Below, one piece after another: positions 24,359-49,570 of a stretch of DNA of 64,000 nucleotides. This stretch comes from Pseudothioclava arenosa. Lineage in GTDB: Bacteria > Pseudomonadota > Alphaproteobacteria > Rhodobacterales > Rhodobacteraceae. The stretch covers positions 124,001 through 188,000 of the forward strand of contig NZ_NTJD01000002.1 in NCBI RefSeq assembly GCF_002358085.1, given 5' to 3'. Position 1 is the stretch's first letter. The number at the start of each line of letters is the position of its first letter. The notes under the pieces were generated by a model, which was given only the letters and a program-made list of their open reading frames with translations, had not been told where the DNA came from and did no database searches. The translations under genes and the position numbers were made by a program.

Positions 24359-26362
24359 ATGTTCAAGAAAATCCTGATCGCTAACCGCGGCGAAATCGCC
24401 TGCCGCGTGATCAAGACGGCGCGCAAGATGGGCATCAAGACGGTGGCCGTCTATTCGGATGCCGACGCGCAGGCGCTGCATGTGCAGATGGCCGACGAGG
24501 CGGTGCATATCGGCCCGCCGCCGGCCAACCAGTCCTATATCGTGATCGACAAGATCATGGACGCGATCCGTCAGACCGGCGCCGAAGCGGTGCACCCGGG
24601 CTACGGGTTCCTGTCGGAGAACATGAAATTCGCCGAGGCGCTGGAAAAAGAAGGCGTCGTCTTCATCGGCCCGCCGTCGCCCTCGATCGAGGCGATGGGT
24701 GACAAGATCACCTCGAAGAAGATCGCGCAGGAAGCCAAAGTCTCGACCGTCCCGGGCTATATGGGCCTGATCGAGGACGCCGACGAGGCGGTGAAAATCT
24801 CGAACGAGATCGGCTACCCGGTGATGATCAAGGCCTCCGCCGGCGGCGGCGGCAAGGGTATGCGTATCGCATGGAACGATGAGGAGGCGCGCGAAGGCTT
24901 CCAGTCGTCCAAGAACGAGGCGGCGAACTCGTTTGGCGACGACCGTATCTTCATCGAGAAATTCGTGACCCAGCCGCGCCACATCGAGATCCAGGTGCTG
25001 GCCGACAAGCACGGCAATGCCGTCTACCTGCACGAGCGGGAATGCTCGATCCAGCGCCGCAACCAGAAGGTCATCGAAGAGGCGCCGTCGCCCTTCCTCG
25101 ACCCGGAAACCCGCAAGGCGATGGGCGAACAGGCCGTGGCGCTGGCGAAAGCCGTGGGCTACAGCTCGGCGGGCACGGTGGAATTCATCGTCGACGGGCA
25201 GAAGAACTTCTACTTCCTCGAGATGAACACCCGCCTGCAGGTGGAACACCCCGTCACCGAACTGATCACCGGCGTCGACCTCGTCGAGCAGATGATCCGC
25301 GTCGCGGCCGGTGAAAAGCTGCCCTTCGCGCAGAGCGACCTCAAGATCAACGGCTGGGCGATGGAATCGCGTCTTTACGCCGAAGATCCCTATCGCAACT
25401 TCCTGCCTTCGATCGGCCGCCTGACCAAATACCGCCCGCCGGTGGAAGGCCAGACCAAGGGTGGCGGCATCGTGCGTAACGATACCGGCGTCTATGAGGG
25501 CGGCGAGATCTCGATGTATTACGACCCGATGATCGCCAAGCTCTGCACCTGGGGCGAGGATCGCGCGCATGCCATCGAAGAGATGCGCCTCGCGCTGGAT
25601 ACGTTCGAAGTCGAAGGCATCGGCCACAACCTGCCGTTCTGCTCGGCAGTGATGGACCATCCGAAGTTCTGCTCGGGCGACATGACCACGGCCTTCATCG
25701 CCGAGGAATACCCCGAGGGCTTCGAAGGCGTGACGCTGGGCGAATACACGCTCAAGCGCGTGGCCGCCGCTGCCGCCGCGATGAACCGCGTCGCCGAGAT
25801 TCGCCGCACCCGCATCTCGGGCACTCTGGGCAACCACGAGCGTCACGTCGGTGAGGACTGGGTCGTCAGCCTGCAGGACGAAGAGTTCCGCGTGCAGGTC
25901 TCGGCCGACAAGTCGGGCTCGACGGTCCGTTTCGAGGATGGCACCGAGCTGCGCGTCGAGAGCGACTGGACGCCGGGTCAATCGCTGGCCACGCTCGATG
26001 TTTCGGGCGAGCCGCTGGTGCTCAAGGTCGGCAAGATCCCGATGGGCTTCCGCCTGCGCGTCCGTGGCGCCGATCTCAAGGTCAACGTACGCACCCCGCG
26101 CGCCCATGAGCTTGCGCTGCTGATGCCGATCAAGCTGCCGCCGGATACATCAAAATTCCTGCTCTGCCCGATGCCGGGCCTGGTGGTGAAGATCTCGGTC
26201 GAGGAAGGCCAGGAAGTCCAGGAAGGCCAGGCGCTGGCCACCGTCGAGGCGATGAAGATGGAAAACATCCTGCGCGCCGAGAAGAAAGGCGTGGTCAAGA
26301 AGATCAACGCCGCCGCGGGCGCCTCGCTGAAGGTGGACGACATCATCATGGAGTTCGAGTAA
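24359..26362 (+). CDS. pccA: Propionyl-CoA carboxylase alpha chain (biotin carboxylase + BCCP)
   Basis: A 667-residue protein. The biotin carboxylase domain is about residues 1-450: FKKILIANRGEIACRVIKTA, the ATP-grasp loop ASAGGGGKGMR, and FLEMNTRLQVEHPVTE. The BT domain is about 470-590. The C-terminal biotinyl domain has the lysine motif EAMKMEN (about residue 633). It carboxylates biotin and passes it to PccB. The ATG at 24359 follows GGAGGGGAAGGG; the longer open frame upstream runs through the terminator. Confidence 0.95.
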   Translation: MFKKILIANRGEIACRVIKTARKMGIKTVAVYSDADAQALHVQMADEAVHIGPPPANQSYIVIDKIMDAIRQTGAEAVHPGYGFLSENMKFAEALEKEGVVFIGPPSPSIEAMGDKITSKKIAQEAKVSTVPGYMGLIEDADEAVKISNEIGYPVMIKASAGGGGKGMRIAWNDEEAREGFQSSKNEAANSFGDDRIFIEKFVTQPRHIEIQVLADKHGNAVYLHERECSIQRRNQKVIEEAPSPFLDPETRKAMGEQAVALAKAVGYSSAGTVEFIVDGQKNFYFLEMNTRLQVEHPVTELITGVDLVEQMIRVAAGEKLPFAQSDLKINGWAMESRLYAEDPYRNFLPSIGRLTKYRPPVEGQTKGGGIVRNDTGVYEGGEISMYYDPMIAKLCTWGEDRAHAIEEMRLALDTFEVEGIGHNLPFCSAVMDHPKFCSGDMTTAFIAEEYPEGFEGVTLGEYTLKRVAAAAAAMNRVAEIRRTRISGTLGNHERHVGEDWVVSLQDEEFRVQVSADKSGSTVRFEDGTELRVESDWTPGQSLATLDVSGEPLVLKVGKIPMGFRLRVRGADLKVNVRTPRAHELALLMPIKLPPDTSKFLLCPMPGLVVKISVEEGQEVQEGQALATVEAMKMENILRAEKKGVVKKINAAAGASLKVDDIIMEFE

Positions 26363-44856: not shown

Positions 44857-45414
44857 TCAGAGCTTGGAGAGCTTGGATTGCAGCTCGGCGAGCTGTTTCT
44901 TGATCGAGGCGAGGTCTTCCTTGCTGGTGTCGCTCTCCTCGGTCTCCATCTCGGGGCCGCTCGAACCGGCGGCGCCCCAGCCCTTCATCATCTGCGCCAG
45001 AAACGCCTGTTGCTGGCGTTGCAGCGCGTCGAAGCCGGGCATCGAAGCCATTGGGTTCGGCATGTGTGACAGGTTCTCCATCAGCTGCGACTGACCTTCG
45101 CGCAGCATCTGGAACGAGGCCGCGAGGAATTGCGGCACCACCGATTGCGCCGACGTCGTATAGGAGCGCACGAGATCGGTCAGCACATCGACCGGCAGCA
45201 CATTCTCGCCCCGGCTTTCATGCTCCGCGACGATCTGCAGCAGGTATTGACGCGTCAGGTCATCGCCGGTCTTCAGGTCGATGATCTGCACCTCGCGGTC
45301 TTCGCGGACGAATTTCGCGATGTCCTCCAGCGTCACGTAATCACTGGTTTCGGTGTTGTAGAGACGGCGCGAAGCGTATCGCTTGATCAGCAAGGGCTTT
45401 TCATCTGCGGCCAT
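44857..45414 (-). CDS. phaR: Polyhydroxyalkanoate synthesis repressor PhaR
   Basis: A 185-residue regulator. The N-terminal DNA/PHA-binding domain is highly conserved: LLIKRYASRRLYNTETSDYVTLEDIAKFV, then DREVQIIDLKTGDDLTRQYLLQIVAE. The C-terminal part is helical (FLAASFQMLREGQSQLMENL), ending in a coiled coil (SIKKQLAELQSKLSKL). PhaR represses phasin genes and its own gene and is released by binding PHA granules. It lies downstream of phaP on the same strand, with its own TTTGCAAA-containing upstream region. Confidence 0.94.
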   Translation of the reverse strand: MAADEKPLLIKRYASRRLYNTETSDYVTLEDIAKFVREDREVQIIDLKTGDDLTRQYLLQIVAEHESRGENVLPVDVLTDLVRSYTTSAQSVVPQFLAASFQMLREGQSQLMENLSHMPNPMASMPGFDALQRQQQAFLAQMMKGWGAAGSSGPEMETEESDTSKEDLASIKKQLAELQSKLSKL

Positions 45415-45449: not shown

Positions 45450-45509
45450 GAGTTTGATGCGGCGCGGCGGCAAAAGCAACATTCTTTATGCAGTGGGCCC
45501 GGCGCGCGA

Positions 45510-45626: not shown

Positions 45627-46076
45627 TTATTTCGCGGCGGTGGTCGCCTTTTTTGCCGCAGCGGTCGCCTCGGCGGTCGCTTTTTTCACGGCTTCAGCGG
45701 CTTCTTCCGAAGCTTCTTTGCCAGCAGCCAGCATCAGCTCGACGGTTTCCATCTGCACTTTTTTCGCGATTTCGGCGAAAGCGGCGAGGTTTTCAGCAGC
45801 CATTTCAGCCGAGGCCGAAGCGAAATCGCTCAGAGCTTTGGCGTAGTCGGCCGGCTCTTCTTTGGTTTTCGCCAGGGTGCCCATTTTCGAGAGGGTCGAT
45901 TTCGCCCATTTCGACGACAGGTCGGTCGATTTCTCGGCGGCGTCGAGGGCCACTTTCGACAGTTTCTCGGCGACGGCGGCTTGCGACTTGAAGCCGTCCT
46001 GGAATTTCGCGGTGTCAACCGGGAAAGCCGACATCATGTCTTGGAAGATCTTGGTGTAGTCTTGGGTCTTGGTCAT
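45627..46076 (-). CDS. phaP: Phasin (PHA granule-associated protein)
   Basis: A 149-residue Ala/Lys-rich helical protein: TKTQDYTKIFQDMMSAFPVD at the N-terminus, SEEAAEAVKKATAEATAAAKKATTAAK-like low complexity at the C-terminus. It has the amphipathic heptad pattern of the phasin family. It coats PHA granules. The start at 46076 is set by GGAG 6 bases upstream. Three CTGC-N3-GCAG sites lie upstream, so it is the prime PhaR target in the locus. Confidence 0.9.
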   Translation of the reverse strand: MTKTQDYTKIFQDMMSAFPVDTAKFQDGFKSQAAVAEKLSKVALDAAEKSTDLSSKWAKSTLSKMGTLAKTKEEPADYAKALSDFASASAEMAAENLAAFAEIAKKVQMETVELMLAAGKEASEEAAEAVKKATAEATAAAKKATTAAK

Positions 46077-46144: not shown

Positions 46145-46173
46145 GATATACGCGCTGCAATGCAGCAAATCAA
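46145..46173 (-). promoter_or_regulatory. phaP promoter
   Basis: On the minus strand: TTGATT (46173-46168), exactly 17 bases, TATATC (46150-46145). Transcription would start near 46138, a leader of about 62 bases. PhaR site 1 fills the spacer. Confidence 0.7.
46155..46165. promoter_or_regulatory. PhaR operator site 1 (CTGC-AAT-GCAG)
   Basis: Perfect match to the CTGC-N3-GCAG palindrome described for Rhodobacter PhaR, positioned between the -35 and -10 of the phaP promoter, where a bound repressor blocks RNA polymerase. Confidence 0.8.
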
Positions 46174-46184
46174 GGGGCTTTTTG

Positions 46185-46195
46185 CTGCGTCGCAG
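46185..46195. promoter_or_regulatory. PhaR operator site 2 (CTGC-GTC-GCAG)
   Basis: A second perfect palindrome, 30 bases from site 1 (about three helical turns), upstream of the -35. Confidence 0.75.
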
Positions 46196-46239
46196 AATTT
46201 TCACAAAAGACTTCCCTAACGTAAGAGATTTCTGGAATG

Positions 46240-46273
46240 CTAATAAATAAAGGCGCAGAACGTGTCCTGCGCC
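46240..46273 (-). terminator. Terminator after phaC
   Basis: A 7-base stem GGCGCAG / CTGCGCC with an 8-base loop, followed on the minus strand by TTTATTTATTA. Together with the promoter it makes phaP a separate unit. Confidence 0.7.
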
Positions 46274-46290
46274 CTTCAATTTGCGAAATG

Positions 46291-46301
46291 CTGCGGTGCA
46301 G
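46291..46301. promoter_or_regulatory. PhaR operator site 3 (CTGC-GGT-GCAG)
   Basis: A third perfect palindrome, 106 bases from site 2 and on the far side of the phaC terminator, 28 bases from the phaC stop. It may support looping or act as an auxiliary operator. Confidence 0.65.
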
Positions 46302-46328
46302 CAATTTGGGGCGACCTATGCGCTCACG

Positions 46329-48143
46329 TCAGATCTTAACGTTCTCAATAACATAGGTACCGGGGGCGGGTGCAAGCACAGGGTGATCGGCATCGCCCGG
46401 TTCACGTGCCGGGACCTTGCGGCCCGAGCGCTTCGCCAGCCATTCGCCCCAGCGCGGCCACCAGCTGCCCTCATGATACTCCGCCTCGGCCTTCCATTCG
46501 TTGGGGCTCTTGATCGGGGCTTCCGAAGTGTAGTGGCCATATTTCTTCTTGCTGGGCGGGTTGACGATTCCCGCGATATGGCCCGACTCGGAGAGCACGA
46601 AGGTCTTGTCAGTCGATCCCATCTTGGCCACGCCGTTGAACGAGGCGACCCAGGGCGCGATGTGATCGGTCTCGCAGGCGATCGCCATCAGCGGCACTTT
46701 GACGTCGGCGACGCTCAGCTTCTCGCCCATCAGCTCGTAAGTGTCGCTGGCAAAGCGGTCGGACTGGCACAGCCCGCGCAGGTATTCGACAGCCATGCGG
46801 CCGGGCAGGTTGGTCGAGTCGCCGTTCCAGTAGAGCAGATCGAAGGCCGGCGGCGCCTCGCCCATCATGTAAGAGCGGATCGCCGGCTGATAGATCAGGT
46901 CGTTCGAGCGCAGGAACGAGAAGGTGCGCGACATGAAATACGAACTGAGAATGCCATCCGACTTGATCTGCGCCTCGATCCCGTCGACGAAATCGTCCTG
47001 CAGGAAGGTGGTGAACTCGCCCTGATCCGAGAAATCGGTGAGCGTGGTGAAGAAGGTGGCCGATTTGATCGACTTGTCCTTACGCTTGTTCATCAGCGCC
47101 AGCGTCAGACTCAGCGTGGTGCCCGCGATGCAATAGCCCACCGCGTTGACCTGCTTTTCGCCGGTGATCTTCTTCACCTCTTCGACCGCCTCCAGATAGC
47201 CTTCCTCGACGAAGGTATCCATGCCGACGTCCGCATAGCTCGGGTCCGGGTTTTTCCACGACAGTACGAACAGCGTGAAACCCTGATCGACGATCCATTT
47301 GATCAGCGAGTTGGCGGGTTTCAGGTCGAGGATGTAGAAGCGGTTGATCCAGGGCGGGAAGATCAGCAGCGGCGTGCGGTAGACCTGCTCGGTCGTCGGC
47401 TTGTACTGGATCAGTTCGAACATGCGGTTGCGATAGACCACCGAGCCCTCGGTGGCGCCGATATTCTCGCCCACGGTGAAAGCGTTCTTGTCGGCCAGCG
47501 TGACCAGCAGGTTACCCTTGTTGTCCTCGAGGTCGCGCACGAGGTTTTCCAACCCCTTCACGAGGCTCGCGCCCTCGGTCTCGACGGCGCGTTCGAGCGC
47601 ATCGGGGTTGGTGGGCAGGAAATTCGTGGGCGCCATCAGGTCGATGATCTGGCGGGTGAAATACTCGACGCGGCGACGGTTCTTGTCGTCAAGCCCCTCG
47701 AGGTTGTCGAGCGAATCCTCAAGCGCCTTGGCCGAGCTGAGGTATTGCTGCTTGATGAAGTGGAAATAGGGGTGGGTGTCCCACAGCGGGTTTTTGAAGC
47801 GCGGATCCTTGCGCGCGCCGGGCTCTGCCGAAGGCTTGGGCATCCCGCCCTTGGCGAGCGCCTCGCTGGCCTCGATGTAATGCTTGACCGCATCCGCCCA
47901 GTAGTTCACCTGCGCCTCGAGAATCTTCGAGGGCCGTTCGGAAAATTCCTTTATAAAAGCCGCCGAGGCGCTCAGGTAAAGGTCCAGTCCGGGCCCGTCG
48001 AGCGTTGGCGCGTGGGGGCGTTTTTGCGAAACGGCCTGCACGAGTCTCTGGGTAAGGGCCTCGATCTTCTTGAGGTTTTCCTGCATCTGTCCTGAGAGCT
48101 CGGTGCCGGTTTCTTCTTCAGTCATGTTCTCCCCAGTTGTCAT
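46329..48143 (-). CDS. phaC: Class I poly(3-hydroxyalkanoate) synthase
   Basis: A 604-residue PHA synthase with a PhaC_N domain (about 100-270). The alpha/beta-hydrolase catalytic domain has the lipase-like box GYCIAG, where the cysteine (about 340) is the nucleophile, WNGDSTNLPG, the catalytic aspartate region MAIACETDHIAPW, and SGHIAGIVNPP with the general-base histidine. It polymerises hydroxyacyl-CoA at the granule surface. ATG 48143 follows GGGAGGAATTG; a second ATG six codons in (48125) has a GGGGAG and is an alternative start. Divergent from phaZ. Confidence 0.94.
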   Translation of the reverse strand: MTTGENMTEEETGTELSGQMQENLKKIEALTQRLVQAVSQKRPHAPTLDGPGLDLYLSASAAFIKEFSERPSKILEAQVNYWADAVKHYIEASEALAKGGMPKPSAEPGARKDPRFKNPLWDTHPYFHFIKQQYLSSAKALEDSLDNLEGLDDKNRRRVEYFTRQIIDLMAPTNFLPTNPDALERAVETEGASLVKGLENLVRDLEDNKGNLLVTLADKNAFTVGENIGATEGSVVYRNRMFELIQYKPTTEQVYRTPLLIFPPWINRFYILDLKPANSLIKWIVDQGFTLFVLSWKNPDPSYADVGMDTFVEEGYLEAVEEVKKITGEKQVNAVGYCIAGTTLSLTLALMNKRKDKSIKSATFFTTLTDFSDQGEFTTFLQDDFVDGIEAQIKSDGILSSYFMSRTFSFLRSNDLIYQPAIRSYMMGEAPPAFDLLYWNGDSTNLPGRMAVEYLRGLCQSDRFASDTYELMGEKLSVADVKVPLMAIACETDHIAPWVASFNGVAKMGSTDKTFVLSESGHIAGIVNPPSKKKYGHYTSEAPIKSPNEWKAEAEYHEGSWWPRWGEWLAKRSGRKVPAREPGDADHPVLAPAPGTYVIENVKI

Positions 48144-48247
48144 CGTGACAATTCCTCCCTATCCTGCAAGGAACTTAATGCCGTTTTTTGGGGAGCGTAA
48201 AGCGGCGTTTGCAGGGAATTTGGCCGAATGTAGGAGTTGCCCACGCC
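48144..48247. promoter_or_regulatory. phaC-phaZ divergent promoter region
   Basis: A 104-base gap with AT-rich patches. It has inverted half sites CCTGCAA (48163-48169) and TTGCAGG (48209-48215) but no perfect CTGC-N3-GCAG site. No clear -35/-10 pair stands out. Confidence 0.4.
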
Positions 48248-49570
48248 ATGAAGGGTATGATGCGCTATGACCTGATGGAGACCATCAGGAACACGAACGA
48301 ATGGATGGGCGCCAGCGCCCGTGCGATGGCTTCCTACCCGGTATGGGGTCTCGTTCCGCATCCGATGTTCAAGCTGATGTCGGCCTGGGGCCGCGTGACC
48401 GAGCGCAGCTTTGCGCGCATGGTCATCAAGCCCGACTGGGGGATCCGCTCCATCCCCTGCGAAGACGGCCGCGATCACCTTGTCAACATCGAGACCGTGA
48501 TCGACAAGCCGTTTGGCTCGCTGATCCATTTCAACGTCTCGGGCCGCGAGCCGATGAAGCGCCGCATCCTCTTGGTGGCGCCGATGTCGGGCCATTACGC
48601 GACGCTTTTGCGCTCGACCGTGGCCTCGCTGCTGCCCGACGCCGATGTCTACGTGACCGACTGGCATAACGCGCGTGATATCCCCGTCTCCGAAGGCAAG
48701 TTCGATATCGAAGACTACACGCTCTATCTTGTCGAATTCATGAAACACCTCGGGCCGGACATCAACGTGATCGCGGTCTGCCAGCCGGCGCCGCTGACGC
48801 TGGCCGCGACCGCCTATCTTGCCGAGGAAGAGCCCGCCGCGCAGCCGCGTACGCTGACGCTCATCGGTGGCCCGATCGACCCCGACGCCGCCGCCACCGA
48901 AGTGACCGACTTCGGCCGTCGCGTGACGATGGGCCAGCTTGAACACATGGTGATCCAGCGCGTGGGCTTCAAATACAAGGGCGCGGGCCGCATGGTCTAT
49001 CCGGGCCTGATGCAGCTTGCTTCGTTCATCTCGATGAACATGGACAAGCACTCGGCCGCCTTCCAGGAAAAAATCGTGAACGAGTCGAAGGGCACTGGCT
49101 CGGAACATGACCACCACAACCGCTTCTACGACGAATACCTCGCGGTGATGGACATGACCGCCGAGTTCTACCTCTCGACCGTCGAGCGCGTGTTCAAGGG
49201 CCTCGAAATTGCCCAGAACAAGTTTAGCATCAACGGCAAGGCGGTCGATATCGGCAAGATCACCAATGTCGCCGTCAAGACCGTCGAAGGCTCGAACGAC
49301 GACATCTCGGCGCCGGGTCAATGCGTTGCCGCGCTGCGTCTGTGCACCGGCCTGCCGGAGTCGAAAAAAGCCCAGCACCTCGAACCGGGCGCGGGCCATT
49401 ACGGCATCTTCGCGGGCTCGAGCTGGCGCAACAACATCCGCCCGCTCGTGCTCGATTTCATCGACGAGCATGCGAATGACAAGCCGCTGAAAGCCGAGCC
49501 CAAGGCCGAAGCCCCCGCCGAAGCCCCGAAGGCGGACGCCAAGGTCACCCCGCTGAAATCGGTCAGCTAA
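48248..49570 (+). CDS. phaZ: Intracellular polyhydroxyalkanoate depolymerase
   Basis: A 440-residue PhaZ. It has the start region MRYDLMETIRNTNEWMGASA, PMSGHYATLLRSTV, and the nucleophile segment IAVCQPAPLTLAA, where cysteine replaces the lipase serine as in other intracellular PHB depolymerases (about residue 178). The family's C-terminal part is LEPGAGHYGIFAGSSWRNN with the catalytic histidine. The tail is Ala/Pro/Lys-rich. It mobilises stored PHA. Start chosen at 48248 (GGAG upstream); the ATGs at 48257 and 48260 are also possible. Confidence 0.9.
   Translation: MKGMMRYDLMETIRNTNEWMGASARAMASYPVWGLVPHPMFKLMSAWGRVTERSFARMVIKPDWGIRSIPCEDGRDHLVNIETVIDKPFGSLIHFNVSGREPMKRRILLVAPMSGHYATLLRSTVASLLPDADVYVTDWHNARDIPVSEGKFDIEDYTLYLVEFMKHLGPDINVIAVCQPAPLTLAATAYLAEEEPAAQPRTLTLIGGPIDPDAAATEVTDFGRRVTMGQLEHMVIQRVGFKYKGAGRMVYPGLMQLASFISMNMDKHSAAFQEKIVNESKGTGSEHDHHNRFYDEYLAVMDMTAEFYLSTVERVFKGLEIAQNKFSINGKAVDIGKITNVAVKTVEGSNDDISAPGQCVAALRLCTGLPESKKAQHLEPGAGHYGIFAGSSWRNNIRPLVLDFIDEHANDKPLKAEPKAEAPAEAPKADAKVTPLKSVS

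Follow-up and report, generated by a model that had tools for sequence, protein, structure and literature searches.

A predicted PhaR double operator at the phaP promoter of Pseudothioclava arenosa, with a probable additional PhaR site specific to the genus

Results

The pha locus and its palindromes

The DNA analysed here (termed the window) is a stretch of 64,000 nt from Pseudothioclava arenosa, corresponding to positions 124,001-188,000 of contig NZ_NTJD01000002.1 (assembly GCF_002358085.1). Within it the phaR, phaP, phaC and phaZ genes are neighbours; these genes, and the sequence elements with which this analysis is concerned, are as follows:

44857..45414, minus strand: phaR, PHB-responsive repressor (PF07879, E 5.5e-27; PF05233, E 4e-12)
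45457..45467, no strand assigned: degenerate PhaR-like palindrome with 2 mismatches, 43-53 bases upstream of phaR
45627..46076, minus strand: phaP, phasin (Phasin_2, PF09361, E 2.4e-4, just under the curated cut-off)
46145..46150, minus strand: phaP -10 element TATATC, from sequence reading (opening with [TC]A in 73/73 loci)
46155..46165, no strand assigned: site 1, exact CTGC-N3-GCAG, candidate proximal PhaR operator within the phaP -35/-10 spacer
46168..46173, minus strand: phaP -35 element TTGATT, from sequence reading (matched by TTGnnn at this position in 73/73 loci)
46185..46195, no strand assigned: site 2, exact CTGC-N3-GCAG, candidate distal PhaR operator upstream of the -35 element
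46249..46276, minus strand: intrinsic terminator of phaC, from terminator prediction and RNA folding, between sites 3 and 2
46291..46301, no strand assigned: site 3, exact CTGC-N3-GCAG, between the phaC stop codon and the phaC terminator
46329..48143, minus strand: phaC, PHB synthase (PF07167, E 1.2e-74)
48188..49570, plus strand: phaZ, PHB depolymerase, divergent from phaC, start codon uncertain (PF06850, E 7e-94)

The encoded PhaR has both the PHB_acc_N DNA-binding domain (PF07879) and the PHB_acc domain (PF05233), and the phaP product is up to ~79% identical to its relatives. Read along the minus strand, the order of elements is the phaC stop codon (46329), site 3, the terminator, site 2, the -35 element, site 1, the -10 element and the phaP ATG (46076). 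A 604-codon open frame lies antisense to phaC (window 46281-48095, plus strand) and is probably a shadow frame of the GC-rich coding sequence.

A sequence-only reading that preceded this analysis had described three exact CTGC-N3-GCAG sites here, the first of them inside a 17-base promoter spacer; sequence reading and a pattern scan bear this out. The predicted phaP promoter lies on the minus strand and consists of TTGATT (46173-46168), 17 bases (46167-46151) and TATATC (46150-46145), with site 1 wholly within the spacer. Relative to the phaP ATG, site 1 occupies -89 to -79, site 2 -119 to -109 and site 3 -225 to -215; sites 1 and 2 are 30 bp apart, centre to centre, and site 3 reads TTGCTGC-N3-GCAGCAT on the minus strand. 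The phaC terminator, which had likewise been placed between site 3 and the promoter sites, is found at 46276-46249. A simple sigma-70 scanner run on the window did not flag the phaP promoter, because TATATC breaks the scanner's last-T rule; the promoter is called from its conservation at 73 of 73 loci.

Clustering of the sites relative to chance

A scan for further copies, which the sequence-only reading had proposed, finds exact CTGC-N3-GCAG at 70 sites in the 2.79 Mb genome, versus 43 for a reversed control pattern. At this density ~0.006 exact sites would be expected in the 252-bp phaC-phaP gap, where three are seen; under a Markov null, the probability of one exact site within the 133 bp from the phaC stop codon to site 2 is p = 0.004. 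These two calculations rule out chance clustering of the three sites. The non-chance signal lies in the clustering, inasmuch as the count of four exact sites in the window as a whole does not exceed chance expectation (shuffled sequences average 2.57); the fourth match, at 25639, stands alone.

Sites 1 and 2 across the Rhodobacterales

Starting from a set of 80 related phaR loci, phaC and phaP were placed by tblastn and the gap between them was read wherever both genes were present, yielding 73 distinct Rhodobacterales phaC-phaP gaps (the window included). Each of the 73 gaps has two sites, neither with more than one mismatch, and in 59 gaps both are exact. Site 1 is at the same place in every locus (exact in 63), beginning in each case two bases past the TTGnnn -35 hexamer; site 2 is likewise found in every locus (exact in 68), and the spacing between the two is invariably 25-30 bp. 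In all 73 gaps the -35 place begins with TTG and the -10 place with [TC]A, the commonest form being TTGAAA-TG-CTGCN3GCAG-CATN followed by TAT or CAT. Because the pair is universal in this set, the pair in the window represents the standard architecture of the order.

A third site confined to two related loci

Site 3 is distributed quite differently from sites 1 and 2. Only two of the 73 loci have a third site: the window and L021 (Defluviimonas nitratireducens), whose gap does not differ from that of L097, the locus from the one congener compared. A pattern search for the triple arrangement through 394 genomes of the family (one for each genus, plus the congener) gave 14 matches, of which 11 lacked a match to any of the four pha proteins and three lay at pha loci, belonging to the window, its congener and L110. 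In L110 the third site (CTGCCGGGCAG) is surrounded by GC-rich sequence and probably arose by chance. No convincing third site was found in any other genus examined, long phaC-phaP gaps included, and a third site therefore cannot be generally needed.

Between the window and the congener, whose phaC genes are 81% identical, the arms of site 3 (TTGCTGC and GCAGCATT) are unchanged, whereas its centre (ACC versus GGC) and flanks have diverged. In both species site 3 lies between the phaC stop codon and the phaC terminator, at 27 bp from the stop codon in the window and at 6 bp in the congener, where sites 1 and 3 are exact and site 2 has one mismatch. The terminator stem has undergone a compensatory change, from GGCGCAG...CTGCGCC in the window to GGCGCGG...CCGCGCC in the congener (an A-T to a G-C pair). 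This contrast, drawn from two species, is suggestive of protein binding to DNA at site 3 and of RNA structure at the terminator. Site 3 is probably a real extra PhaR site limited to this genus, its conservation being that of two species.

With regard to the surrounding architecture, in most relatives phaC and the phaP operators are not separated by a terminator, and their site 2 follows the phaC stop codon by a median of 29 bp. The window (46249-46329) and the congener have a strong terminator in this interval; some R. capsulatus-type loci also appear to have one of their own.

Other candidate PhaR sites

The degenerate palindrome at 45457-45467 may be a weak autoregulatory site of phaR; in some relatives the same gene is preceded by an exact site, at about -32 to -38. 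A PhaR site at the phaC/phaZ start, which is common in relatives, was looked for in the window and not found. In those relatives an exact PhaR-type palindrome (GTTGCTGCATCGCAGCAA in L016:2481-2491, with counterparts in a score of other loci, the congener too) is situated either ~43 bases inside the aligned 5' end of phaC or ~20 bases before phaC; it is possibly a phaC/phaZ operator, or else a sign that the true start of phaC is further in.

Sites 2 and 3 also fit the longer PhaR motif of S. meliloti, which occurs at 11 places in the genome, these two among them, versus 14 for a reversed control; since the count is no higher than that of the control, single matches mean little. Of the remaining matches to this longer motif, one is 77 bp ahead of fabI and another 117 bp ahead of the gene for a cell-wall hydrolase. 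Two long palindromes that share the same arms (TTTTTGCCGC-N3-GCAGCAATTT), at L163:2034-2044 (G000:C1:407233-407243) and L159:4909-4919 (G000:C19:101408-101418), are found upstream of the genes for a fabI-type enoyl-ACP reductase and a cell-wall hydrolase, which on this basis are candidates for further PhaR targets; of the two closest fabI relatives tested, neither showed the fabI site upstream. The shorter pattern, in addition, detects a PhaR-type site over the ppdK start codon, at L159:2258-2268 (G000:C19:98757-98767). Some relatives have degenerate copies of the ppdK site, likewise spanning the start codon; the site overlaps coding sequence, however. In S. meliloti ppdK is reported to be among the direct targets of PhaR (PMC12542648).

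Discussion

Relation to published PhaR systems

That PhaR of Rhodobacter recognises CTGC-N3-GCAG, as the sequence-only reading had stated, agrees with the R. sphaeroides PhaR site as given in PMC12542648 and PMC3206438. The PhaR-phaP operators of R. sphaeroides FJ1 (Chou and Yang 2010, as related in those papers) share the motif, the repressor family and the target gene with the window, but, unlike for the window, those accounts mention no third site. P. denitrificans PhaR is reported to bind a TGC-rich region over the -35 and -10 elements (PMC3206438). PhaR is a tetramer in B. diazoefficiens (PMC10888616) and in P. denitrificans, and a Herbaspirillum PhaR homologue is a tetramer as well (PMC3206438).

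At B. diazoefficiens phaP1, two PhaR boxes 17 nt apart flank the -35 element, the proximal one overlapping the core promoter as in the window, and both are required for full binding, inasmuch as mutating either box raises the PhaR concentration needed to bind; unlike in the window, the motif is looser and no distant third site is listed (PMC10888616). In S. meliloti, too, a pair of palindromes flanks the -35 element at both phaP1 and phaP2, and PhaR is sequestered by PHB; the extended AT-rich arms of these palindromes are matched by sites 2 and 3 of the window, either site alone is enough for a gel shift, and a third site is not described (PMC12542648). A parallel for a third site comes from R. 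eutropha, where phaP1 and phaP3 have three PhaR sites each, one of them far upstream at ~200 bp (phaP3) or within the gene (phaP1), and for which an auxiliary-site or loop model has been proposed; by comparison with the window, the sites are otherwise placed, phaP3 is activated and no terminator is described between sites (PMC12849132). The idea of a three-site PhaR arrangement with a proposed loop is thus already in print, and is not new here.

A likely mode of action

Taken together, the arrangement in the window is probably a standard PhaR double operator at the phaP promoter to which one genus-specific extra PhaR site has been added. Sites 1 and 2 correspond by sequence to the ordinary, already-known PhaR pair, and only site 3 is unusual. 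Recognition by PhaR, direct repression exerted from site 1 and the combined action of this site with site 2, all put forward by the sequence-only reading, are well supported by conservation (73/73) and by published work on PhaR of R. sphaeroides, B. diazoefficiens and S. meliloti, and none of the three is new.

By analogy with these published relatives, when PHB is absent PhaR (a tetramer in relatives) would occupy site 1, between the -35 and -10 elements, along with site 2 just upstream of -35, and RNA polymerase would thereby be excluded. Nascent PHB granules would then take up PhaR and the sites would be vacated, so that phasin would be made and would coat the granules. For site 3, located 106 bp beyond site 2, we infer that it is most likely a further PhaR site that raises the local occupancy of PhaR, with a mild auxiliary effect; PhaR bound there may perhaps also block read-through from phaC. 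A stronger version, in which PhaR at site 3 links phaP repression in this genus with control over phaC read-through or over how the 3' end of the mRNA forms, is considered very unlikely; were it true, one PHB-sensing repressor would work at both ends of the phaC-phaP gap.

Alternative interpretations of site 3

The sequence-only reading had offered site 3 as either an auxiliary or a looping operator. The former is plausible, site 3 being an exact consensus that is kept in the congener. The latter would have a PhaR tetramer bridge site 3 and sites 1/2 in the manner of the lac system, looping out the phaC terminator and strengthening repression; PhaR or its homologue is indeed tetrameric in P. 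denitrificans, B. diazoefficiens and Herbaspirillum, and for phaP1/phaP3 of R. eutropha a loop-stabilised three-site model has been put forward (PMC12849132). The distant third consensus site on which lac-type looping depends does exist in the window (as predicted from sequence), and its distances to site 2 (106 bp) and to site 1 (136 bp) amount to 10.1 and 12.95 turns, which are near whole helical turns; the congener, however, has 92 and 120 bp instead (8.76 and 11.43 turns). Loops of such a length are usually phase-sensitive. The shift of 14-16 bp (~1.3-1.5 helical turns) between the two species means that phase is not kept, which leaves looping unsupported and constitutes a weak argument, from two species, against a phased loop; moreover, the third site, and hence the loop arrangement, is absent from the other genera examined. 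A bridging role for site 3 is accordingly regarded as unlikely.

Similar doubt attaches to the notion that site 3 is a relic, that is, an ancestral post-phaC operator cut off from the promoter by a new terminator-bearing stretch, or the leftover of a tandem duplication. Site 3 does sit, at 27 bp (6 bp in the congener) past the phaC stop codon, where most relatives have site 2 (median 29 bp), and a TTGAA lies 11 or 9 bases beyond it, as does the -35 element after site 2, a resemblance with a chance probability of ~1% that was noticed post hoc; yet no -10 element lies at the right distance beyond this TTGAA, and a useless relic should decay, whereas the arms of site 3 are unchanged in both species while its centre and flanks have diverged. 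Conservation of an RNA hairpin at the 3' end of phaC (an accessory terminator or mRNA stabiliser), as opposed to a DNA operator, appears quite improbable: RNA folding gives a 6-bp hairpin with a 3-base loop at site 3 in both species, and a T-rich run comes next in the congener, but the window has no comparable T run and, while the adjoining terminator stem shows an RNA-like compensatory change, the arms of site 3 retain the exact PhaR consensus with the centre free to vary. The favoured reading of site 3 remains that of an additional PhaR site whose auxiliary effect would be mild.

Conclusions

Across the Rhodobacterales, the phaP switch appears to be a fixed module, consisting of one operator within the -35/-10 spacer and a second operator ~28 bp upstream. 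Against this background, site 3 would provide a small natural variant with which to ask whether distant PhaR sites matter--a question lately raised for R. eutropha.
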